From the NCBI RefSeq assembly GCF_014201145.1, contig NZ_JACHDP010000001.1, positions 62,001-126,000 of the forward strand: a stretch of DNA of 64,000 nt, read 5' to 3'. The notes beneath the pieces were generated by a model, which saw nothing but the letters and a program-made list of their open reading frames with translations, was not told the DNA's origin and did not search any database. Source of the stretch: Micromonospora parathelypteridis. GTDB lineage: Bacteria; Actinomycetota; Actinomycetes; Mycobacteriales; Micromonosporaceae. Position numbers and translations under genes: made by a program. Position 1 is the stretch's first letter; the number at the start of each line of letters is the position of its first letter. Positions 8,223 through 62,116 of the stretch are shown piece by piece.

Positions 8223-9992
8223 ATGTCGACAGCCGGGCGAAGCAGCCGTCGATTCCTCCTCCTCGACGACCTGCCGGTTTCGGACGGGACAGACGACCTG
8301 CTCGGTACTGGCACGGTGGCGTCGAGCCTGGCTGATCTCATCTACGGCTCGCGAAGCCACACACCGTTCGCGCTGGCCATCGACGGCCAGTGGGGCGCCG
8401 GCAAGAGCACCCTGATGAAGCAGTTGTCCGCAGGGCTGCAGACCCGCACGGACATGGAGGTCGTCTGGTTCAACGCCTGGACGGCCACCGGCGGGGGTGC
8501 CCTCACCGGCATGTTGGAGACGGTCCTCAACAGCCTCGACCGCAACGTCGTACGGCGGTCGCTTCGCCGGCTCAACAGCAACGGTTTCGTCGCCGGCGCA
8601 CTTCGCATCGGCGTCGGCATGGCCGCCGGGTTCTTCCGCGTTGATCGGGCACTCGATCAGCTGTGGGAGCGGATGGCGGTGGACGCGTCCGCCCGCCAAC
8701 AGGTCCGTCGGTTGCTCGAGGAGGCGATGACCACCTGGACTGACGGGAGAGATGGCACGCCCCGGCGGACGATCACGATCTTCGTGGACGACCTCGATCG
8801 CTGCGACCACCGCACGGCGCTCGAGATCTTCGAAGCCATGAAGCTATACCTCGACCTACCCGGCATCGCTTTTGTGCTGGGCTGTGACCTCAGTGTCCTC
8901 ACCCGACTGGCACTGCCGGGAGCGGACGAGCCAGCACAGGTACGAAGCTATCTGGAAAAGATCATCCAGGTTCATTACCGCATCCCACGCCCGGCCGAGG
9001 CGCAGGTCCACTCGATGATCATTGGGTACGCCAACCGGTCCCGCACGGACAGCCTGCTGACCGATGACATGGTGGCGTTGATCGGACGTCAGACCGTTGG
9101 AAACCCCCGCCGAGTCAAGCGGCTCATCAACAGCTTCGTGGCCGAGTACGACCTCGACCAGGACTGGCACGAGATCGGTGCGGAAGGCTTGATGAAGGTG
9201 GTGATACTCCAACATCTGTACCCGGACTTCTACCACGACGTCCTCGCGGGCAAAGACGACACCGCCGGCGACGTGCTCAACTACCGGCTGACGAGAGACT
9301 GGCTGCGACGCGCTGCTGCGCTGCCTCCGCAGCAACGCGAGGCGGCACACCGACTCCTCACGCACCACGACGTCGCGCTGCCGACATCGCTCGACGATCA
9401 CAGCTACGATGCCGGCGACTGCGCGCGAGCGAATGCTCAACTGGCCGAACGGGTGCCCGCCCTCTGGCCCGCCCTCATCGACAACGACGACCTCCTCGAC
9501 CTGCTTCGCAGCTTCGGCGACCAGGCCGAGCGCGGCCACCTGCAGAGCAGGCTCCGTCGCCGCCCGTTGAGCACTGCGCCGACGACACTCTCTGGCCGAG
9601 GCAAGGAGCCCCGCCTCGATGGCATTCGTCTGTTGTGGGTCGACGACAATCCGGCCGGCAACGAAGCGCTCATCAACACCATCACGGCGCGAGGTGCTCA
9701 GGTCAGGACGGCCGTGTCCGGCGAACAGGCCCGGGCTCTGCTGCCGAACTTCAATCCGAACCTGCTGCTCTCCGACGTCGGGCGGGGCGGGGCGGAGGTG
9801 GGCTTCACCGACCTGGTGGCGCTTCGCAAGGACGGTTACGCCGGGCCCGCTCTCTTCTATACCTCCCATTTCAGTACGACGTTGAACGAGAAGGCGATCG
9901 CCGCCGGGGCGGTCGGGGTGACCGCCTCACCCACCACCGTCATGGAGTGGCTGGAACGGCATTCCGCGAACGCAGCGACCTCGCCAGGCTGA
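8223..9992 (+). CDS. KAP family P-loop NTPase fused to a receiver domain
   Basis: 589 residues. Residues 55-63 GQWGAGKST are Walker A; 186-194 IFVDDLDRC is the KAP-type Walker B with the double Asp; NPRRVKRLIN further on is the sensor/lid region. Most KAP proteins carry membrane helices inserted in the P-loop domain; here only a weak hydrophobic stretch (~122-140) is seen. From ~470 to 585 a receiver-like domain follows: LLWVDDNP supplies the acidic pair (D474, D475), LLLSDVG the phospho-acceptor (D518), ALFYTSHFS the switch Thr/Ser. The usual Lys of receivers is replaced (VTASPTT), so it may be a pseudo-receiver. The fusion suggests phosphorelay or ligand control of the NTPase. Confidence 0.85.
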   Translation: MSTAGRSSRRFLLLDDLPVSDGTDDLLGTGTVASSLADLIYGSRSHTPFALAIDGQWGAGKSTLMKQLSAGLQTRTDMEVVWFNAWTATGGGALTGMLETVLNSLDRNVVRRSLRRLNSNGFVAGALRIGVGMAAGFFRVDRALDQLWERMAVDASARQQVRRLLEEAMTTWTDGRDGTPRRTITIFVDDLDRCDHRTALEIFEAMKLYLDLPGIAFVLGCDLSVLTRLALPGADEPAQVRSYLEKIIQVHYRIPRPAEAQVHSMIIGYANRSRTDSLLTDDMVALIGRQTVGNPRRVKRLINSFVAEYDLDQDWHEIGAEGLMKVVILQHLYPDFYHDVLAGKDDTAGDVLNYRLTRDWLRRAAALPPQQREAAHRLLTHHDVALPTSLDDHSYDAGDCARANAQLAERVPALWPALIDNDDLLDLLRSFGDQAERGHLQSRLRRRPLSTAPTTLSGRGKEPRLDGIRLLWVDDNPAGNEALINTITARGAQVRTAVSGEQARALLPNFNPNLLLSDVGRGGAEVGFTDLVALRKDGYAGPALFYTSHFSTTLNEKAIAAGAVGVTASPTTVMEWLERHSANAATSPG

Positions 9993-40059: not shown

Positions 40060-42003
40060 TCAGCGGGGCAGGGCGTTGTCGGCGCCCGTCAGGTAGCCGC
40101 TGGCCTGAAGGTCGAACAGCTCGCGGTAGAGGCCGTTCGCGGCCATCAGCTCGTCGTGGCGGCGCTGCTGGACGATCCGGCCCCGATCCATCACGAAGAT
40201 CCGGTCGGCGTGCCGGACGTTGGCCAGCCGGTGGGTGATCAGGACGACCGCCCGATCAGGGCGCCGGCGCAGGTGCTGGAACAGGGCGTGTTCGGCACGC
40301 GCGTCCAGGGCTGCCGAGGGTTCGTCACAGATCAGCAGGGCGGCATCCCGGTAGAGGCCGCGAGCCGCGACGAGCCGCTGCCACTGCCCGCCGGACAGTT
40401 CATGGCCGTCCTTGAACTCCCGGTCGAGCAGGGTGTCGTAGCCGTGCGGCAGACCGACGATCATCTCGTGCGCGGCGGCTGCGGCAGCCGCCTCCTGGAC
40501 GCTGGGGCCGGATCGCTCCGGCGGGCGGTCGTGCCGCCCGACGCGGATGTTCTGCCCGGCGGTGAAGGGGAACTTCCACCACTCCTGGGTCATCACTGCC
40601 ACCTGGGCGCCAAGGGCTCGGGGGTCCAGCTCGGCGGCGTCGACGCCGTCCCAGCGGATCACCCCGCCCGTCGGCTGGTAGAGCCCCGCGATCAGTTTGG
40701 CCAGGGTGGTCTTGCCGGAGCCGTTCTCGCCGACCAGTGCGATCACCTCGCCCCGGCGGACGCTCAGGCTGACCCGGTCCACTGCCGGCGAGTCGGTGTC
40801 CGGGTAACTCAGGCTCACGTCGGTCAGCTCGATCACGCCGACACCGTCGGCCATCCGGTCGCCGCCGATCGGCACCCGCGCGTGGGCGCGGGCCAGGAAG
40901 TCCCGATAGTCCTGGTAGTAGAGGGCGTCCTCGTACAGCGAGTTGGTGGCGACGACCGAAACGCCCAGGCTGGTCCGCGCGGACTGCAGGGCGAGCAACG
41001 CGGTGGCCGCGGCGGCGAGGGCGACCATCCCGTTGAGCAACAGGCCGCCGAGGACCGCGTACACCCCGAAGGTGGCCAGCCCCGCCACCGTCGCGCCGAC
41101 CACCCGCGTGCCGGTCTGCGAGCGGACCAGCCGCAGCTGGGCCCGGGTCTCGACGGCCATCACCCCGCGATACTCGGCGAGCAGGAAATCGCGCATCTGG
41201 TACGCGCGCACCTCGGCAGCGGTGTGCCGGTTGGCCATCAGGTGGGCCAGCATCCACATCCGGCGCCGCCGGGTGATCCGGGCCAGCATCGCCAGATACT
41301 CCCGGCGGGCCATCCGCACCGCCGTGATCGCCTGCGGCACCGCGGCGAGCAGCAGGCAGGGCAGCAGCAACGGTTGGATCACGGTCACCGCCACGGCGGT
41401 GGCGAGCATCCCGACCACGCCGGTCACCAGGTTGACGGTGTGGTCGACGATGTACGCCGCCTCCGCCATTCCCCGGTCCCGCGCGCGGTCCATCTCCTCG
41501 GCGAAGCCGGCGTCGTCGAACGCGGCGAGGTCCACCGCAGTGGTGGCCTCGAACAACCGCAGCTCCACCTGATAGTTGATCTGCGGGATAAGCCGGGCCT
41601 GGGCCCAGCCGGCCGCGATCGTCAGGCCGCCGCGCGCCGACACCGCCGCCGCGGCCACGATCAGCGCCGGCAGAGCCGAGCGGACCCGATCCGGTGTGGG
41701 ACCGGCGGCGAACAACTCGCGCAGCACACTGGTCGTGGCGAGCAGGCCGAACGTCGTCATCACGCCGGCGGCGATGTTCAGGCCGATGGAGGCGACCGTG
41801 TCCCGACGGTTGGTGGCCCAGCCCAGCCCGACCGCCTCCCGGACCAGCCGGGGCAGTCGGCGGGCAACCGCCCAGAAGCTGGTGTGGGCGAACTCCTGCG
41901 CGTGGTGCAACCAGTCGCGATCCTCCAACTCCGGCAGCATGGTGCCGGTGGGCGGGTCGCCCGGCTGATCGTCGCTCTGGGGAGCGCTGCGCTGGCGGGC
42001 CAT
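40060..42003 (-). CDS. ABC transporter, fused permease/ATPase
   Basis: 647 residues from ATG 42003 (GTGGAG 4 nt upstream). Six membrane segments to residue ~340, then Walker A LVGENGSGKTTLAK, Q-loop VMTQEWWKFPF, signature LSGGQWQR, Walker B LLICDEPSAALD and the switch His in VLITHRL. The N-terminal soluble extension (~60 residues) and Trp-rich Q-loop resemble actinobacterial exporters linked to peptide or antibiotic export. No substrate gene is nearby. Confidence 0.9.
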   Translation of the reverse strand: MARQRSAPQSDDQPGDPPTGTMLPELEDRDWLHHAQEFAHTSFWAVARRLPRLVREAVGLGWATNRRDTVASIGLNIAAGVMTTFGLLATTSVLRELFAAGPTPDRVRSALPALIVAAAAVSARGGLTIAAGWAQARLIPQINYQVELRLFEATTAVDLAAFDDAGFAEEMDRARDRGMAEAAYIVDHTVNLVTGVVGMLATAVAVTVIQPLLLPCLLLAAVPQAITAVRMARREYLAMLARITRRRRMWMLAHLMANRHTAAEVRAYQMRDFLLAEYRGVMAVETRAQLRLVRSQTGTRVVGATVAGLATFGVYAVLGGLLLNGMVALAAAATALLALQSARTSLGVSVVATNSLYEDALYYQDYRDFLARAHARVPIGGDRMADGVGVIELTDVSLSYPDTDSPAVDRVSLSVRRGEVIALVGENGSGKTTLAKLIAGLYQPTGGVIRWDGVDAAELDPRALGAQVAVMTQEWWKFPFTAGQNIRVGRHDRPPERSGPSVQEAAAAAAAHEMIVGLPHGYDTLLDREFKDGHELSGGQWQRLVAARGLYRDAALLICDEPSAALDARAEHALFQHLRRRPDRAVVLITHRLANVRHADRIFVMDRGRIVQQRRHDELMAANGLYRELFDLQASGYLTGADNALPR

Positions 42004-42151
42004 CGACTCCACGGACCCTCCTCCGGGCGGTATCACGAACGCCGCCCGACACTACTGCCCGCGACCACTCAATGTCTTTAGGTAGTCGGCGCGTCGCACG
42101 GGTGTGCCAATGGCGTGTCGTCGCCAACCGGATGATTCCGAGTCGCCCAGG

Positions 42152-50687: not shown

Positions 50688-50749
50688 TGCGCTTCGGACG
50701 ACGGGCAGCAGCCTCGCATGCGCTTCGGACGACGGGCAGCAGCCTCGCA
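50688..50749. repeat. Exact 31-bp tandem duplication
   Basis: Two adjacent identical 31-bp units (50688-50718, 50719-50749) upstream of the GNAT gene. On the minus strand the unit encodes RGCCPSSEA in one frame. Confidence 0.85.
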
Positions 50750-53768: not shown

Positions 53769-53820
53769 CGGGACGACCCGGCGCAGCCCGGGCGAGCGCC
53801 AACTCGACCTCCACCCCTCA

Positions 53821-53843
53821 TGGACCGTGACTGATACGGTCCA
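53821..53843 (+). promoter_or_regulatory. Dyad overlapping the -10 of the Trypco2-protease operon
   Basis: TGGACCGT (53821-53828) and ACGGTCCA (53836-53843) are perfect 8-bp arms with a 7-nt spacer. TACGGT (53835-53840), a likely -10, lies inside, so a bound repressor would block transcription. Confidence 0.55.
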
Positions 53844-53887
53844 ATGCGTGACTGCCGGGCCGGTCGCAAGAGGGGGAGGGCGAGCCA

Positions 53888-54217
53888 GTGGATATCGACG
53901 ACGAGGACAATCAGGGGTGGGGCCTCGCTGACGCGATCGAGGCCCTCAAGGCCGACCTGGCGGCAGCCGCCGTCACGCGGACCAGCTATCCGAAGTTTCC
54001 GGTGACGTCGGCGACGGTCGAGTTGAAGGTCGTCGCGACGCGCAGCAAGACCGGCAAGGCCGGGTTCAAGGTGCCGTTCATCCACACCGAACTGGGCGGC
54101 GAACTGGGTCACACAAATGAGGTCCTCAGCACCATCACCGTGCAACTCGGAGCTCCCGTGGATGCTGTGGGCAAGCAGGTGAGCATCTCGGATTCGGCTG
54201 ACGAGTTGAAGCGGTGA
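53888..54217 (+). CDS. Trypsin-co-occurring domain 2 (Trypco2) protein
   Basis: 109 residues, GTG start with GGGGGAGGG 7 nt upstream. WGLADAIEALKADLAAA is the family's opening helix; VTSATVELKVVAT and AGFKVPFIH are the strands of its small beta domain. Trypco2 proteins occur next to trypsin-like proteases in actinobacterial conflict loci. It is 21 bp upstream of such a protease-NTPase, so the two are probably one operon; the protein may be a regulatory subunit, ligand sensor or protease substrate. Confidence 0.85.
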   Translation: MDIDDEDNQGWGLADAIEALKADLAAAAVTRTSYPKFPVTSATVELKVVATRSKTGKAGFKVPFIHTELGGELGHTNEVLSTITVQLGAPVDAVGKQVSISDSADELKR

Positions 54218-54238
54218 GGCGATCCGTAGCTTACGTCG

Positions 54239-57200
54239 ATGCAAGCCGCAGAACGTGTCCTCGGGATAGCCGCCGATAGAGGAGCTGGCCATCCCGACGG
54301 CCGATATGGTTTCGGATCCGGCTTCCTTGTCTCCGGCCGCGCCGTTCTCACCTGCGCACACGTGGTCGCCGGCGCCCAAACGGTGCTGCTGAACGACGCC
54401 TTGGGCAACGCGTACACCGGACACGTCGTACACCTGGGCGACCCACGCCCACCAGGCACGGGGATAGCTTCCGACCTGGCCATTGTCGATATCGACGACC
54501 CTGCGGTGGATGCTCCACCCTTTCCGCTCGCCGAGATCGACCGCACCGGGATGGGGTCGCTGGAGTCGGTGCGCGTCGTGGGTTGGCCTCAGTTCATGGA
54601 CAGTCCGAACGGGCACGACCGGAGCACCTACTCCGCGGTGGGCAAGATCGAGGACATGACCCGGCGGCGTGAAGGGCTGCTACGTGTCGACGTCAGCGGC
54701 AGCTCTCCGGCTAATGTCGAATCGGGATCCCCCTGGCAGGGGTTCTCGGGAGCGCCGGTCCTCGTCGACGGGCACCTGGTCGGGGTCGTGACCACGCACG
54801 GCTTGCCGGAAGGTCCCAGCGCACTGACCGCCATACCCCTCGCCACGGCTCTCCCGGACGACTGGTGGCCGGCGTTTGGCGCACGTCGCACCTCACCCCT
54901 GCACATGGTGCGACCCGGGCCACCCGGCCCCGCGTGCGTCGTCCACCACCAGACCGTACTGCGATCACTGAGCGGCTATCGGTCCAGCTTGCTCGACGAC
55001 GTCATGCCGTACGTCGCGCCCGACCCCAAGGCCAGCTGGCACCCTGGCAACATCTGGCAGCGGTTGAGTGCCGAGGACGGCCCGAACGCCATCCTGCTGA
55101 ATGGACACGGCGGCATCGGAAAGAGCCGCACTCTGCTCGAAGTTGCCGGCTTGGCCGTCGGGCAGAGCTGGACGGTGCTGCACGTGCGCCCAGGGAACGC
55201 CGCGGGGGTGGTGGACCACCTGACCGCTGTCGTCCGGTCGAGTTTCGCGCCTGTGCTACTGGTCGTCGACTACCTCAACCAGAGCATGGCCAAGGACCTC
55301 GACCTCCCGCAGCTGCACGCCCTGATCCAGCAGAACCGACGCGGCTCCAGCCCGCACCTTGCCATTCTCGCCAGCGCCCGTACGGGCTGGTTGCTCACAC
55401 CGGCCCACGCCCGCGGCGTTGCCGCCCTCGAGCAGATCCAGCTCGAGCCCGAGGCCGAGGACCTGCGAGCCATCTGCGCATCCCTGGTGCAGGCCGTCGC
55501 CCCCGTGGCCACCAAGAAACTGGGTGTGGACACCATGCTGGGGTACACCGACAGCGTTCGGCCCATCCTCACGCTCCTGGTGGCGCGGCAGATCGAGAAT
55601 CGGGTCATCCGGAATCTGCCGGTGCTTCCGCGCGCCACCATGGACGCCCACGACCTCCGGCAATGGCTGGAGCTTCGCCTCGACGAGGACGGCCTCGTGC
55701 CACGGCTCGACTCGTCCGAGAGTTTGTGGGGCCCGCAGGTGGAGGTCCACATCCGGGCGGCGGCAGCCGTATTCCTCGCCACGCCGGGCGACGAGCCGGC
55801 GCTCGTGGAGGCTGCGTCGCACATCTTCAACGAAGGTGCGACGGCGGCGAATCTGCTGCATCTGCTCATCAGGATGGGCTGGCTCGTCAGCAGTGACGAC
55901 GTCCTCGACTCCGTACACGACGTCGTCACGGACTTCCTGGTCACCGGAGTCGTGTTCTGGAGCACCACTGGCGCCCCGCGCCCGGCATTGACCGCACAAC
56001 TCTTGGACGCCGTCGGCCGGCGGCCGGCCTCCCTGGAGCACGCGCTCGTCGCGCTCGGCCGGCTCGCGGACGACATCGACAATGGGGATCGCGCGGCCGA
56101 CCTGATTGGTGAGATCAACCGTTGGTTCGGAGAACATCGCGAACCGGTGGTTCAACTGCTCCTGCGGGACCCGCGGATCGGTGCCCGGACGGCAGCGGTG
56201 CTGGTGAGCAGCGGCATGCTCACGACGGCCTGGAAGACGTACTGGGACCACGCGTTCAGCCCTCTGCTGACGACGCTTGGCCGCGCGCCGGAGGCCTTCT
56301 CCCTTTTACTGGCCGCGGTGCGTGACGTGCCCCCCAAAAGCCGGGACGTCGCCGCTGAGTTGGCCGATCACACGCTCGCCTGGCTCACCGGACGCTCGTT
56401 GGCCGGGGTGGAACAGCTCCTCCGGCTGCTACTCCTCCGCGACGATCTCCCCGCGGACCGAGCCAGGGCCGCTGTGCGGTTGGCCAACGAATGGCTGCGC
56501 CACCACTCCCGCGACGTTCGATCCGACTTCCTCCTCAGGTGCGCGCTGAGGCGCGACGTCGTGGATCACGAGGCGGATCCCGACCTCGAACGACTCACCG
56601 GTTTCGCCCTGGAGTGGCTGGCCGCGAACGGCACGCAACTGAGAGCGACCTATCTGCTGCGAGCTATGAGCAGGGTCAGACACCTGCCCACCGCCGCCGT
56701 CGTGCCGCTCGTCACCCGCGCACTGTCCTGGCTGGGCAGCTACGGCGAGACCATCGAAGCGACCTATGTGCTGCCGGGTTTCCTCAACCAAACGGCGGTA
56801 CCGCAGGAACGGGTCCCCGACTTTGTCAAAGCGGCCCGAACCTGGCTCGCGCATTCCAGTACGCGGCCGGAAGCCCGCTACGTTCTGGCGCACCTGCTGA
56901 CCCGCCAGGACCTCGACGCCACAGTCGTTGCGGAAACGTTCGATCACGTGCGGGAGTGGGTCGAGCAGAACTCGGACGATCCCACTGCTGACTACCTGAT
57001 CCGACGCGCATTGGCACACCCCGCACTGCCGTCGGAAATGACTACGGTCGTTTGCGCGACCGCGTCCAAATGGTTGTCGAACTACGGGATCCTCGAGACG
57101 GCGAACTATCTTCTGCAGGTGCTCGTTCCCGCCGACGGGCTACCCGAAGAGCTGCGCGCCACCACGTTCACCACCGCACAGAACTGGCTGCGAACGCACG

Positions 57201-59386
57201 GCCAACACCTCGACTCGGCCCACCTCCTGCAGGTACTCATCCCCGCCAACGGGCTACCCAGAGAGCTGCGCGCCACCACGTTCACCACCGCCCAGGCCTG
57301 GCTGGAAACGCACGGCCAACACCTCACCGCAAACTTCCTCCTGCAGGTGCTCGTTCCCGCCAAAGGGCTGCCCGACGAGCTGCGCGTCGCCACGTTCACC
57401 ACCGCACAGAACTGGCTGCAAACGCACGGCACACACCTCGACTCGGCCCACCTCCTGCAGGTGCTCATCCCCGCCAACGGGCTACCCAGAGAGCTGCGCG
57501 CCACCGCGTTCACCACCGCACAGACCTGGCTGCACACCCACGGCACACACCTCACCGCGAACTACCTTCTACAGCTGCTCATCCCCGTCAAAGGGCTGCC
57601 CGACGAGCTGCGCACCACCACGTTCACCACCGCACAGACCTGGCTGCAAACGCACGGCCAACACCTCGGCACGAATTACCTCCTGCAGCTGCTCATCGCC
57701 GCCAAGGAGCTGCCCGAAGAGCTGCGCACCACCACGTTCACCACCGCACAGGCCTGGCTGCAAACGCACAGCGAGCACCTCAGCACGAACTTCCTCCTGC
57801 AGGTGCTCATCCCCGCCAAGGAGCTGCCCGAAGAGCTGCGCACCACCACGTTCACCACCGCACAGACCTGGCTGCACACCCACGGCACACACCTCGACGC
57901 GCGGCACCTGCTGGAAACGTTGCTGCGGGCCGACGGGCTGCCCGAGGGGTTGCGCCGCACCACGTTCACCACCACACAGGCCTGGCTCCAGACGCACCGC
58001 GAGCACCCCACCGCGAACTACCTCCTCCAGGTGCTCGTCCCCGCGAACGGGCTGCCAAAGAAGCTGCGCACCACCACGTTCACCACCGCACAGACCTGGC
58101 TGCACACCCACGGCACACATCTCGACGCGCGGCACCTGCTGGAAACGATGCTGCAAACCGACGGGCTGCCCGACGGGTTGCGCGGCACCGCGTTCACCAC
58201 CGCGCGAACCTGGCTACACACCCACGGCACACACCTCACCGCGCAATACCTGCTCCAGGTGCTCGTCCTCGCCAAAGAGCTGCCCGAAGAGCTGCGCACC
58301 ACCACGTTCACCACCGCACAGACCTGGCTGCCCATCCACGGCACACACGTCACCGCGCGGCACCTGCTGGAAGCGCTGCTGGAAGCCGACGTCGTTCCGG
58401 CCGCGGTTCGGGAGTCGGCCGTCAACGCGGCGGCAGCCTGGCTGGACCTGTGGTGGCAGAGGGCGGCGGCCGTGGGGGTCCTACGCGCACTACTCCGGGT
58501 TGAGCCGCCGAGCAACGATGCTCTGGACGTCCATAACGGTGAGAATGTTCCGAGCGCCAGGGTGATCGAGCGGGCACTGCAATGGCTGTCGCGTTTCGGA
58601 CTCTCCACGGAGGCTCGTTCGGTCATCGAGCCCTTGCTGCGGTCTCGTGCTCTGCACGAGCAGGCACGCCAACAGGTGCTCCGAACTGCGGTGGTCTGGC
58701 TGAACGAGCAGGCAGATTCGGATCGTGCTTGCGACATCATCCGCGAGGTCCTGGACAGTTCGGACCTGCCGGAGGATCTTCTGGTCGACGCGATCGAAGC
58801 GGCTCGGACCTGGCTGACGCGACCGGAGGTCGACTATTTTCGAGCCCGACACCTCATCGCGGCGCTATTTCGGCGGCAGTCGGAACACCCGGACAGGGTC
58901 CGGGCGATCACCTCCCCATACCTGATCGTCGTTGAGCGTGGAATCGACGCGGCCCAGGCCCGCCATGCACTCTTCGTCTATCTCACCGAACCAAACCTGG
59001 ATCGCGAGGTCCGGGAGACGGTTCTCCGCCTCACTCGCGAGTGGTTGGTGCGGTTTGCCGAGCAACCCTCTGCTCACCTCGTCCTCGCCGCCACGGCAGC
59101 ACGCGGCGATCTGACCACGGACGAGGCAGGGTGGTTCGAGTACTGCGTGCGAACGTGGCTGGGCAGAAATGCACAGGAGCCGCGCGCGCGGCCACTCGCC
59201 CAAGCGCTGCTCGACGGCGCGCTGACGTTCCCACCGGCGCTGCACCAGGAACTGACCGAAACTGCGCAGATCAGCAGCGACGACTCCGATGATCGCAGTG
59301 CCGGACCTGACACCCGTCAACCCGCAAGCGTGAAAACCCAGCGTCCGTCGCCCCGACAGTCTGGAGCACTCCGCAGCGCGGACTGA
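54239..59386 (+). CDS. Trypsin-like protease - P-loop NTPase - amplified helical-repeat protein
   Basis: 1715 residues. Residues 1-215 are a trypsin-like serine protease: catalytic H41 in LTCAHVVAG, D78 in SDLAIVDI, S169 in GFSGAPV, all intact; no signal peptide, so it is cytosolic. Residues ~275-640 hold a STAND-like NTPase: Walker A GHGGIGKS (288-295), Walker B VLLVVDYLN (D343), then LAILASART. From ~700 to 1690 a solenoid of 38-residue helical repeats follows; units from 968 to 1385 are nearly identical, consensus LPEELRTTTFTTAQTWL plus a second helix with HLL. The order protease-switch-sensor suggests that ligand binding by the solenoid triggers NTP-driven assembly and proteolysis. The stop is 2 bp from the convergent MFS stop. 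Confidence 0.88.
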   Translation: MQAAERVLGIAADRGAGHPDGRYGFGSGFLVSGRAVLTCAHVVAGAQTVLLNDALGNAYTGHVVHLGDPRPPGTGIASDLAIVDIDDPAVDAPPFPLAEIDRTGMGSLESVRVVGWPQFMDSPNGHDRSTYSAVGKIEDMTRRREGLLRVDVSGSSPANVESGSPWQGFSGAPVLVDGHLVGVVTTHGLPEGPSALTAIPLATALPDDWWPAFGARRTSPLHMVRPGPPGPACVVHHQTVLRSLSGYRSSLLDDVMPYVAPDPKASWHPGNIWQRLSAEDGPNAILLNGHGGIGKSRTLLEVAGLAVGQSWTVLHVRPGNAAGVVDHLTAVVRSSFAPVLLVVDYLNQSMAKDLDLPQLHALIQQNRRGSSPHLAILASARTGWLLTPAHARGVAALEQIQLEPEAEDLRAICASLVQAVAPVATKKLGVDTMLGYTDSVRPILTLLVARQIENRVIRNLPVLPRATMDAHDLRQWLELRLDEDGLVPRLDSSESLWGPQVEVHIRAAAAVFLATPGDEPALVEAASHIFNEGATAANLLHLLIRMGWLVSSDDVLDSVHDVVTDFLVTGVVFWSTTGAPRPALTAQLLDAVGRRPASLEHALVALGRLADDIDNGDRAADLIGEINRWFGEHREPVVQLLLRDPRIGARTAAVLVSSGMLTTAWKTYWDHAFSPLLTTLGRAPEAFSLLLAAVRDVPPKSRDVAAELADHTLAWLTGRSLAGVEQLLRLLLLRDDLPADRARAAVRLANEWLRHHSRDVRSDFLLRCALRRDVVDHEADPDLERLTGFALEWLAANGTQLRATYLLRAMSRVRHLPTAAVVPLVTRALSWLGSYGETIEATYVLPGFLNQTAVPQERVPDFVKAARTWLAHSSTRPEARYVLAHLLTRQDLDATVVAETFDHVREWVEQNSDDPTADYLIRRALAHPALPSEMTTVVCATASKWLSNYGILETANYLLQVLVPADGLPEELRATTFTTAQNWLRTHGQHLDSAHLLQVLIPANGLPRELRATTFTTAQAWLETHGQHLTANFLLQVLVPAKGLPDELRVATFTTAQNWLQTHGTHLDSAHLLQVLIPANGLPRELRATAFTTAQTWLHTHGTHLTANYLLQLLIPVKGLPDELRTTTFTTAQTWLQTHGQHLGTNYLLQLLIAAKELPEELRTTTFTTAQAWLQTHSEHLSTNFLLQVLIPAKELPEELRTTTFTTAQTWLHTHGTHLDARHLLETLLRADGLPEGLRRTTFTTTQAWLQTHREHPTANYLLQVLVPANGLPKKLRTTTFTTAQTWLHTHGTHLDARHLLETMLQTDGLPDGLRGTAFTTARTWLHTHGTHLTAQYLLQVLVLAKELPEELRTTTFTTAQTWLPIHGTHVTARHLLEALLEADVVPAAVRESAVNAAAAWLDLWWQRAAAVGVLRALLRVEPPSNDALDVHNGENVPSARVIERALQWLSRFGLSTEARSVIEPLLRSRALHEQARQQVLRTAVVWLNEQADSDRACDIIREVLDSSDLPEDLLVDAIEAARTWLTRPEVDYFRARHLIAALFRRQSEHPDRVRAITSPYLIVVERGIDAAQARHALFVYLTEPNLDREVRETVLRLTREWLVRFAEQPSAHLVLAATAARGDLTTDEAGWFEYCVRTWLGRNAQEPRARPLAQALLDGALTFPPALHQELTETAQISSDDSDDRSAGPDTRQPASVKTQRPSPRQSGALRSAD
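57140..58393 (+). repeat. Eleven in-frame 114-bp tandem repeats
   Basis: Units begin at 57140 and every 114 bp to 58280, each encoding 38 residues; no indel disturbs the period. Identical stretches such as TTCACCACCGCACAGAC recur across units. Flanking units (before 57140, after 58394) keep the 38-residue length but have diverged, so the centre was recently amplified or homogenised. Confidence 0.95.
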
Positions 59387-59388
59387 GG

Positions 59389-60636
59389 TCAGCCGACCCG
59401 GGCATCTTCGGCCAACGCGGCCGCCTCGGGCGCGGGGTCAGCTGTCCGCCTGGGCAGCAGGAGTGGGGTGGCGAGCAGGAGTACGCCGGACATGGTGATC
59501 GCGGCGAGCGGGCTGGTGAGGGTGGCGAGAATGCCCCAGACGACCATCAGAGCGGCCTGGAGGAGTTTGCCGGCGGCACTCCAGGTGCTGAGGATCCGGG
59601 CGGTGTGGCCTGCGGGAGTCCGTTGCAGGCGTTCGGTCGCGTAGATCGGGTTGAAGATGCCCATGCACGTGATCAGCAGGCCCTCGACGACGATCACGGT
59701 GATGAGTCCGGGAATGCCGGGTTGGACGAACGCGAGACCGAGGGGGAAGAGCGACCGGAGCCAACCGGAGATGGTCATGATCCGGTGCCGGCCGTAGCGG
59801 GTCACGAGCCGCGCGGACAGTCGGGCGCCCACGAAGCCGCCGAGTGCGGGGATGCCGAACGCGAGACCGTACTGCCAGGCCGGAAAGTGGTACTGGCCCA
59901 GCAGAAGGACGGCCAGGACCGGGACGGTGGCCATGATGAGGCCGCCGACCAGGACCGAGTTGAGGAACAGACCCTTCAGTACGGGGTCGCGCAGGATGAA
60001 CCGCCAGCCGTCGAGAAGATCTGCCCCGCGCAGCCGGGTGATCCGGTCGCGGGGTGCTGCGACGTCGCCGCCGCGGATGCGGAGGACCCCGAGCGCGGAC
60101 AGCAGGTAGCTGAAGGCGTCGGCCATGATCGTGACGACCGGGCCGAGCAACCCGATCAGGGCGCCGCCGAGGGGTGGGCCCGCCGCGGTCGCCACCCAGT
60201 TCGTGCCCTCGAATCTGCCGTTCGCCGCCAGGAGATGCTCACCACGGACGAGATACTTCAGGTACGCGCCGGACGCGGCGGCGAAGGTGATGCTCGCGGT
60301 TCCGGAGATGACTGAGACAACCAGCAGTTGGCCGTACGACAGTGAGCCGAGGACGTACGCGATCGGGACACTCGCCATCGCGGCGAACCGGATCAGGTCC
60401 ATCCCGATCATCACCGGGCGCTTGGCGCGGTGCTCCACCCACGGTCCGAGCGAGAAGGCGACAATTGCCGCAACGGCGAGCCCGGCCGCCTCCAGGAGCG
60501 AGACGGCGAACGCCGACGAGTGCAGCACCTGGACCGCGAGCAGCGGGAACGCGCCGAAAGCGATCCACGTGCCGTACGTGCTGACGGCGTAGGCCGACCA
60601 CAGCCAACCGAAGTTGCGTCCCAACCGTACGCGCAT
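59389..60636 (-). CDS. MFS transporter
   Basis: 415 residues from ATG 60636 (GAGGGAG 5 nt upstream). About twelve membrane segments; FGWLWSAYAVSTYGTW is the usual first helix and LGPWVEHRAKRPVMIGMDLIR the loop-2/3 motif of the MFS_3-type (macrolide-efflux-like) exporters. Divergent from a LysR gene with a dyad between them, which suggests inducible efflux. Confidence 0.9.
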   Translation of the reverse strand: MRVRLGRNFGWLWSAYAVSTYGTWIAFGAFPLLAVQVLHSSAFAVSLLEAAGLAVAAIVAFSLGPWVEHRAKRPVMIGMDLIRFAAMASVPIAYVLGSLSYGQLLVVSVISGTASITFAAASGAYLKYLVRGEHLLAANGRFEGTNWVATAAGPPLGGALIGLLGPVVTIMADAFSYLLSALGVLRIRGGDVAAPRDRITRLRGADLLDGWRFILRDPVLKGLFLNSVLVGGLIMATVPVLAVLLLGQYHFPAWQYGLAFGIPALGGFVGARLSARLVTRYGRHRIMTISGWLRSLFPLGLAFVQPGIPGLITVIVVEGLLITCMGIFNPIYATERLQRTPAGHTARILSTWSAAGKLLQAALMVVWGILATLTSPLAAITMSGVLLLATPLLLPRRTADPAPEAAALAEDARVG

Positions 60637-60723
60637 GCGACTCCCTCGCGACAACCGATGTTCGGGTCTCCGCATCCCACTGCACCGGTCGGCTCAGGAT
60701 CAAACAACCGACCCCGGGCGAGT

Positions 60724-60740
60724 CACAACCATCGGTTGTG
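60724..60740. promoter_or_regulatory. LysR-type binding site between MFS and LysR genes
   Basis: CACAACC-ATC-GGTTGTG is a perfect 7-bp-arm dyad. Further ACAACCGA copies occur nearby at about 60650 and 60705. CATAAT (60747-60752) ends 6 nt before the LysR start, a leaderless -10. Confidence 0.6.
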
Positions 60741-60758
60741 CGCCTGCATAATGGTCCG

Positions 60759-61727
60759 GTGGATACCGAGGCGGTGCGATCGTTCGTCCGCGCGGCCGAG
60801 CTCGGGCAGCTGCAACATGCCGCCGACGAGCTCGGCGTGACGCAACAGGCCGTGTCGAAGCGGATCGCCACTCTCGAACGCGACCTCGGCGTCCGGCTGT
60901 TCACGCGTACCGCCCGAGGGGTCGAGCTGACACTCGACGGCCAGGCTCTTCTCCCGCACGCCCGGGACGTCGTCGCGGGCGTCGATCGCGGCATGGCCGC
61001 GATCAGACCAGGCTCGCGGACCCTTCGGATCGACGTCCTCGGCCTACGGTCCGCACAGGCCGTCGTCCTGCACGACTACTGGCGGTCGCATCCCGAAACC
61101 GACCTCGACGTGGTGACCCTCCGGGTCGACGACCCACGCGCGGCGGTCGCCGCCGTCCAGGCGGGTGACATCGACGCCTCGTTCCGCTCGGTCACCGACC
61201 CGGCCACACTGCCGAGCGACGTGCACATGATCCACGCGTTCGACTCCCCGACGGAGCTGCTCGTCGGCCCGAGGCATCCGCTCGCCTCCGCACGAACGCT
61301 GACACCAGCCCAACTGCGCCGACACCGGATCTGGGTGCCGGGCATCGCGCCGCGAAGCGAATGGGCAGACTTCTACGATCAGCTCGCCACCGCCTTCGAT
61401 CTTCGCGTGGACGCGGCGGGCCCGAACTTCGGCAACGAGGTGCTCCTCGACATCCTCGCCGACTCCGCCGACGTGGCAACCCTCGTCGGCTCACGCGACC
61501 GGTACATCTGGCCCACGAACCACGACCTACGTCGCATCCCGATCGTGAAGCCGACGCTGGCCTACCCGCTCTCGCTCATCCTCCCCCGAGCGAATCCACA
61601 CCCCGGGCTCCAGGCGGTCATCGACCACTTCGCGAGCCTGGCACCGCTGCCCACGACGACCTGGCGCCCGACCTGGGCGACGACACCACGCCACCGCGAG
61701 GGAGCCGTCGAACACCACCGACGTTGA
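60759..61727 (+). CDS. LysR family transcriptional regulator
   Basis: 322 residues from GTG 60759; an upstream GTG 60738 lies inside the operator-like dyad and is rejected. EAVRSFVRAAELGQLQHAADELGV and TQQAVSKRIATLERDLGVRLF are the LysR helix-turn-helix; a periplasmic-binding-fold effector domain follows from ~90. Likely controls the divergent MFS exporter. Confidence 0.92.
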   Translation: MDTEAVRSFVRAAELGQLQHAADELGVTQQAVSKRIATLERDLGVRLFTRTARGVELTLDGQALLPHARDVVAGVDRGMAAIRPGSRTLRIDVLGLRSAQAVVLHDYWRSHPETDLDVVTLRVDDPRAAVAAVQAGDIDASFRSVTDPATLPSDVHMIHAFDSPTELLVGPRHPLASARTLTPAQLRRHRIWVPGIAPRSEWADFYDQLATAFDLRVDAAGPNFGNEVLLDILADSADVATLVGSRDRYIWPTNHDLRRIPIVKPTLAYPLSLILPRANPHPGLQAVIDHFASLAPLPTTTWRPTWATTPRHREGAVEHHRR

Positions 61728-62116
61728 CGGTCAATTGCCGCAGCGCGCCTGCGGGTCGGTGGTGGATCTCAGCGGATGCGGTGCGCTCCGCGTCGACCAG
61801 TGTGTCGCCGGCATTCGTGGGATCGTTCGTCTGATCGGCGGCAGAAGCGGATAGCGGCAAGCAGATCGCATGGCACGGCACGCGTGGACGTCGATATGCT
61901 CGTGTAGGTGCGGCACGATGACGATCATGGGCGCGCCGATCCGCACATGTTCGTCCTGAAAGCGACGTAGCACGGATCCTTCAATCCACGCAGGGCCACC
62001 GAAGGGGCCGTGCCCAGAGTGGACACCTGCGCAGACGTCCCTGATCTTCTCAGTAGGGCGTTAACGATCTTCACCGTCGAGCGCGAGCGAAGTATGACCG
62101 CACGAAGGGGATGGGT
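61728..62116. other. Gene-free stretch
   Basis: About 390 bp with only short frames lacking family resemblance and no clear repeat. Base composition is slightly less GC-rich than the flanks, so it may hold gene remnants; nothing can be named. Confidence 0.45.

Follow-up and report, generated by a model that had tools for sequence, protein, structure and literature searches.

The 64,000-nucleotide stretch of the Micromonospora parathelypteridis genome analysed here, called the window throughout (positions 62,001 to 126,000 of contig NZ_JACHDP010000001.1), contains a two-gene unit. The first gene (53888-54217) encodes a Trypco2 protein of 109 amino acids (PF19631, 56.6 bits, cut-off 24.2, E 3e-15). 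The second (54239-59386) follows after 21 bp and encodes a 1715-amino acid protein, with no internal stop codon, in which a trypsin-like protease, a STAND NTPase and a long helical solenoid are joined. These genes and the other features of the unit lie on the + strand. An original prediction, made by a model from the sequence, had the unit begin at 53821; a Trypco2 gene does stand ahead of the large gene and the pair is conserved, but its start is at 53888. Two in-frame stops between the genes rule out a single read-through chain of Trypco2 and trypsin. Upstream, an inverted repeat with perfect 7-bp arms (GGACCGT-N7-ACGGTCC, 53822-53842) surrounds a TACGGT hexamer (53835-53840). TANNNT is the consensus of -10 type hexamers, and a hexamer of this form is aligned ~50 bp 5' of Trypco2 in the window and in the two genome orthologues (TAGGGT in L084 and TAAAAT in L085), both of which keep Trypco2 upstream. 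The hexamer and inverted repeat are a candidate promoter or operator and may serve as the promoter of the operon.

Residues 1-213 of the large protein (54239-54877) make up an HtrA/Deg-like serine protease domain with a double β-barrel fold and a His-Asp-Ser triad (H41, D79, and S170), as in trypsin-like and HtrA-type enzymes. The triad is intact, as had been predicted, and H41 was correctly placed; the aspartate and serine had been numbered D78 and S169. Trypsin_2 matches residues 26-183 with 49.5 bits (cut-off 27.6). Across 27 aligned trypsin-type proteins, a set that includes the window protein and omits L031 (see below), the triad is conserved at 27/27 (H), 26/27 (D), and 27/27 (S). A sequence search of solved structures with a profile of residues 1-1190 returned 187 matches, and all 60 among the matches listed are proteases; the search gave nothing convincing for Trypco2 or the repeat array. 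A structural search of solved folds also returned proteases in all 50 of the matches listed, covering residues 1 to ~222, and the nearest solved folds among those listed are HtrA/Deg quality-control proteases.

The STAND NTPase core match spans residues 277-382 (55067-55384), with a Walker A motif (GHGGIGKS, 289-296), a Walker B motif (LLVVDYL, 340-346), and ASART from residue 378. Residues G289, G294, K295, and D344 are invariant across 34 aligned sequences, as are H560, D561, V563, and D565 in a winged-helix-like region (55745-55954) defined by alignment and model. The MHD-like motif of this region, VHDVVTD (559-565), we take to resemble the NLR MHD motif; the AlphaFold2 model has strands at 549-552 and 555-558 and a helix at 561-572. 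STAND/NLR proteins are marked by a P-loop, a Walker B motif, a winged helix with a conserved His-Asp, C-terminal superstructure repeats, and an N-terminal effector. The large protein shows all of these marks in its sequence and model; nucleotide binding and oligomerization are predicted. The AlphaFold2 model of residues 1-1190 has a mean predicted local distance difference test (pLDDT) score of 85.7 and a predicted template modeling score (pTM) of 0.64, and supports the domain layout that had been proposed. Domain scans agree with the original prediction as well: trypsin and Trypco2 score above their cut-offs, and the STAND-like P-loop NTPase is borne out by the Walker motifs and the HD motif. 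Against a curated cut-off of 34, nSTAND_NTPase5 (PF25199) scores 29.9 bits, below it, in the protein scan and 34.1 bits, above it, in the whole-genome search. The same family matches 42 of 47 relatives at E <= 0.01.

Most of the remaining chain is an α-α solenoid (residues ~582-1660; 55982-59218), made in its larger part of 38-residue units, which accords with the ~1000 residues of helical repeats originally described; the model reaches residue 1190. There are 24 W-anchored units, the first near residue 715, and their spacing is exactly 38 residues in 19 of 23 cases. Eleven tandem units form a core (residues 973-1390; 57155-58408), in which Tandem Repeats Finder (TRF) detects periods of 114 bp (11 copies, score 1358) and 228 bp (5.6 copies, score 1504). 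The core units have a mean nucleotide identity of 77% (maximum 95%), and the amino acid identity of the window units averages 65% (best pair up to 0.89); most flanking units have degenerated and reach 24-34% identity in their best matches. Where core units share a residue, its codon differs in a fraction of 0.18 (n 1294 comparisons), whereas the codon use of the gene leads one to expect 0.57; among 11 flanking units the fraction is 0.67, with 0.64 expected. The low silent difference of the core, unlike that of the flanking units, indicates that the core was recently amplified or homogenized, and so upholds the earlier claim of a freshly amplified 38-residue repeat. Codon bias as the source of the silent homogeneity is ruled out by the flanking-unit control. 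A tail multiplied this recently hints at a sensor that evolves fast.

Over the whole unit of the window core, the proportion of silent differences (pS) is 0.247 and that of residue-changing differences (pN) 0.218. At 13 test positions, chosen as the most variable ones of three further arrays (P0001, P0002, and P0003), pN is 0.350, a ratio of 1.42 to the silent rate (5-95% range 1.22-1.70 on resampling of units). This residue excess at variable positions of the unit is suggestive; it comes from uncorrected counts on non-independent units and is no proof of selection. The four arrays have 11 (window), 13 (P0001), 7 (P0002), and 10 (P0003) core units, and W-anchored core units are mostly nearest to their own array (8/11, 11/12, 5/5, and 5/5); P0001 contains mutually identical units. 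Array statistics of L013, L003, and L037, where the register was lost, were not used, and the same script found no period in the L002 array.

The NTPase and repeats constitute a chassis onto which several effectors are mounted. We compared 47 proteins whose open reading frame (ORF) has both motifs, from 43 loci of one genome scan, the window, and further genomes; outside this set are L030, 16 of 20 further stretches without such an ORF by the motif rule, and many genome-scan matches that were not fetched. The effector is trypsin in 28, caspase in 8, transglutaminase in 1, a weak Mrr match in 1 (L038, 17.7 bits, cut-off 21), and unassigned in 9. The trypsin domain lies within the same ORF in 27 of the 47. 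In L031 it lies just upstream in another frame, with Trypco1 and then the trypsin domain preceding the NTPase ORF (upstream of 9605), so that L031 is a split relative, a frameshifted relative, or a sequencing error. On the NTPase tree, which has some long branches, the effector label changes nine times, and starred (well-supported) branches force at least four changes for trypsin and at least three for caspase. Homogenized units (at least four W-anchored units at >=70% amino acid identity) occur in 12 of 47 loci and need six changes on the tree, a count independent of the class of L031; where measured, these arrays have periods of 37 or 38 residues and differ in unit sequence.

The upstream partner was sought by a six-frame look at the 2 kb 5' of 46 loci. 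Trypco1 or Trypco2 lies upstream of 22 of 28 trypsin types (Trypco2 in 19, Trypco1 in 3) as against 0 of 19 others, and EACC1 lies upstream of 6 of 8 caspase types and of no other type. In four trypsin types (L010, L011, L012, and L028), the upstream gene is not a Trypco and overlaps the protease start by 4 bp (L010:8520-9488). Its product has hydrophobic, membrane-like stretches by eye and pentapeptide repeats, which four members match and a direct scan shows in L010 and L028, and is a candidate membrane substrate. The transglutaminase-like effector (L102, 7730-9316 and 9313 on) accompanies an upstream LCAT/PGAP1-like hydrolase and a homogenized 37-residue array. Three of 300 family genomes, counting its own, carry close orthologues of the window protein (>=55% identity over residues 1-703), and orthologues are already in sequence databases as 'serine protease', 'S1 family peptidase', or 'trypco2 family protein'.

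We hold it moderately probable that the unit is a bacterial NLR-like (STAND) conflict receptor, with a protease head, an NTP switch, a solenoid sensor, and a Trypco2 partner. Effector swapping among the relatives, together with the variable chromosomal slot described below, fits the expectation for a conflict receptor, the kind of system originally proposed. STAND proteins are described as having a closed ADP form that opens to give ATP-bound multimers (PMC6468293). By analogy with STAND proteins, the Avs1 system, and HtrA-like proteases, the NTPase would be closed in the resting state, and the solenoid, chiefly its amplified array, would bind a protein that is foreign or altered. Opening of the NTPase and oligomerization of the chains would follow, so that the HtrA-type protease domains would be gathered and activated by rearrangement rather than by zymogen cleavage. 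The active proteases would cut proteins of the cell or the invader, leading to growth arrest or death. An antiphage action of the unit is something that we only infer.

One of the closest known systems is Avs1 (AVAST type 1), in which a trypsin fused to STAND cuts an MBL-fold pro-nuclease encoded upstream, and in which sensing of infection is coupled to oligomerization and proteolysis (PMC12799240). Both have a trypsin-like protease fused to the defence protein, a partner gene directly upstream, and modules swapped between systems. Unlike Avs1, however, the upstream gene here encodes the 109-amino acid Trypco2 and not an MBL-fold pro-nuclease, the NTPase is nearest to nSTAND_NTPase5, and the repeat array is recently amplified; PADLOC gave no Avs match among the matches listed at E <= 1. 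VMAP ternary systems (Kaur et al. 2020, PMC7159879) share a trypsin neighboring a Trypco1/2 gene and exchangeable peptidase modules. The unit is not such a system, as VMAP-C has no match in the protein and vWA/MoxR none in the six neighboring genes scanned. The EACC1 caspase systems, sometimes with STAND (PMC7159879, PMC8195603), are also of two genes, and EACC1 accompanies most caspase members of the present chassis, whereas the effector here is a trypsin and the partner Trypco2. CARD-NLR/LypABC of Caulobacter, which leads to lysis, likewise involves trypsin-like peptidases and an NLR-like ATPase with TPR-like repeats, but as separate proteins, and 'trypco' does not occur in the main text of its report (PMC13236601). 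Fungal NLRs with highly conserved repeats, defined by >85% internal identity across >=100 amino acids, have swappable N-terminal effectors, a nucleotide-binding oligomerization domain (NOD), and concertedly evolving repeats with variable positions (PMC4986451); they are eukaryotic, with other effectors and repeat types, whereas the unit has a bacterial protease and a 37-38-residue α-α unit. The parts and logic are thus known, through the trypsin-Trypco pairing (PMC7159879) and the trypsin-STAND fusion behind a partner gene (PMC12799240). The original suggestion that the architecture may be undescribed holds for the exact combination of an nSTAND5-type NTPase, fused trypsin, Trypco2, and amplified 38-residue array, which we did not find in the literature searched, mostly papers free of subscription.

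The chromosomal slot was compared in wide regions from five of the six relatives with at least 91% identity, and in none of the five does the sequence between the conserved flanks match the gene pair at the DNA level. The flanks, at 53772 and 63678 in the window, stand ~22 bp apart in G278, an empty slot, and enclose 3 to 8 kb of other sequence in the remaining four relatives. The left-hand FAD gene is present at E <= 1e-150 in 25 of 61 genomes searched (own included). In a DNA comparison of the 19-kb regions around L084 and L085 with the window, the gene pair alone is shared, plus ~70 bp upstream in L084, and the transferable unit therefore appears to be the pair. The slot of G308 (L158 3516-8030) encodes a 1504-amino acid protein with a caspase match (24.4 bits, cut-off 21.4), a P-loop (weak nSTAND1/AAA_16), and WD40 repeats, a second NLR-like layout at this site. 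An MFS transporter and a divergent LysR regulator adjoin the unit (59388-61732); they are paired elsewhere in two relatives (L159 and L160) and so look like a separate mobile pair.

Across the window, 43 genes run through PADLOC match 16 families at E <= 1e-5, and none of these matches involves the large protein. A 589-amino acid protein (8223-9992) matches QatA (1.4e-30) and PifA (1.1e-26) and is presumably a KAP-family NTPase. A 658-amino acid protein (40060-42036) matches mad3 over residues 538-631 (7.6e-28), probably through a shared ATPase domain; within its gene ARAGORN placed an odd tRNA-Asp (anticodon atc, 41533-41619), probably false. There is an exact 31-bp tandem duplication at 50688-50749 (TRF score 124).

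Several observations weigh against the conflict-receptor reading. The nSTAND_NTPase5 score in the protein scan is below the curated cut-off, and PADLOC gave nothing specific: the Trypco2 protein had no match, and the large protein matched weakly RT-Protease_XI, through its trypsin part, and Cas8c. The remaining slot fillers scanned are an FAD monooxygenase, TetR, GNAT, and a weak PP2C-like protein; with such ordinary genes, the slot is a variable one and no defence island. The survey of phage or plasmid association found no relative in 72,556 plasmid records, 50,697 phage records, or IMG/VR (23 pattern matches there), and cargo of a phage or plasmid is rejected. The Trypco-trypsin association (Fisher p 2.6e-8) ignores relatedness, and many rows are near relatives; only four independent pairs could be drawn from starred branches, of which ~3.4 follow the association and none runs counter to it (median p 0.25). 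In six trypsin types the 2 kb upstream lack a Trypco, and mirror trees fail to single out the Trypco2-trypsin pairing (r 0.87 for Trypco2 with trypsin and 0.90 with the NTPase). Nor are more distant kin rare: some match occurs in 83 of 300 family genomes, in many cases only to the trypsin domain. The Phytohabitans array has a residue-over-silent ratio of 0.99 (0.82-1.27), and the excess is thus not general. In helix A the variable positions fall on a single face (p 0.0024, mean of four arrays), which carries no evidential weight, since the exposed faces of any solenoid are expected to vary; when the helix limits were shifted slightly, p ranged from 0.02 to 0.11 in single arrays, and helix B fell short of significance.

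Trypco2 alone gave a poor AlphaFold2 model (pLDDT 51.7; a helix at 13-29 and two strands), and its only invariant columns are L13 and A27, with no conserved catalytic-looking residue. It has been termed a trypsin-co-occurring or adapter domain (PMC7159879, PMC10907252). As Trypco2 accompanies the protease and lacks such a residue, we favor a regulator that would keep the protease inactive until assembly, at about an even chance; that it is the first substrate of the protease, as in Avs1, is doubtful though not far behind, and that it is an adaptor is unlikely. A further possibility, which we consider rather doubtful, is that Trypco2 is an executioner, a small pro-effector cut by the activated trypsin like the upstream pro-nuclease in Avs1. 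The gene order matches Avs1 (PMC12799240), Trypco tracks trypsin rather than the chassis, and L010, L011, L012, and L028 carry a different upstream protein, as though the substrate were exchangeable. However, Trypco2 has just 109 amino acids and lacks a conserved catalytic-looking residue, and it also adjoins a CHAT-like peptidase ORF in its own genome. That ORF (by eye) stands beside the only other Trypco2 match of the genome (G000:C1:6608496-6608732, L075). The small upstream gene, the 21-bp gap, and the conserved pairing would also suit a toxin-antitoxin-like pair, in which Trypco2 neutralizes a constitutively dangerous protease and the locus is retained for stabilization; this is very improbable, as it leaves the conserved NTPase and long solenoid without need.

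Other readings concern the purpose of the unit. Instead of phage defence, it might act in allorecognition among filamentous actinomycetes, akin to fungal NLRs with amplified repeats, whose repeats are under concerted evolution and positive selection (PMC4986451). The number and sequence of array units vary among orthologues, and units are mostly nearest to their own array. Yet the mean 65% amino acid identity of the window units is below the 85% of fungal highly conserved repeats, and there is no known partner locus or incompatibility phenotype; we regard this purpose as unlikely. A housekeeping or developmental protease, serving HtrA-like quality control or programmed lysis in sporulation, would agree with the nearest solved folds among the matches listed, but it is still less probable given close orthologues in just 3 of 300 family genomes, the absence of the pair from the syntenic slot in all five relatives, and the swapped effectors.

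The unit brings together three things mostly met separately: a STAND/NLR switch with a fused HtrA-type protease, a Trypco2 partner, and a sensor array that was amplified not long ago. As the effector and its partner switch jointly on one chassis, the family provides a natural experiment for the function of Trypco1/2 and EACC1. As a tentative and rather improbable extension, the protease-headed NLR-like receptor of filamentous actinomycetes may keep rebuilding its sensor by amplifying a 37-38-residue helical unit in tandem and homogenizing the copies. Several lineages would have done so independently, with different effectors in front of the array. Among prokaryotes the receptor would then correspond to the fungal incompatibility NLRs and would serve allorecognition or keep track of invaders that change fast, and Trypco2 would be the safety catch of the protease. 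Should array polymorphism be found within a species, repeat shuffling would be a route of evolution shared by bacterial NLR-like sensors and fungal incompatibility receptors.
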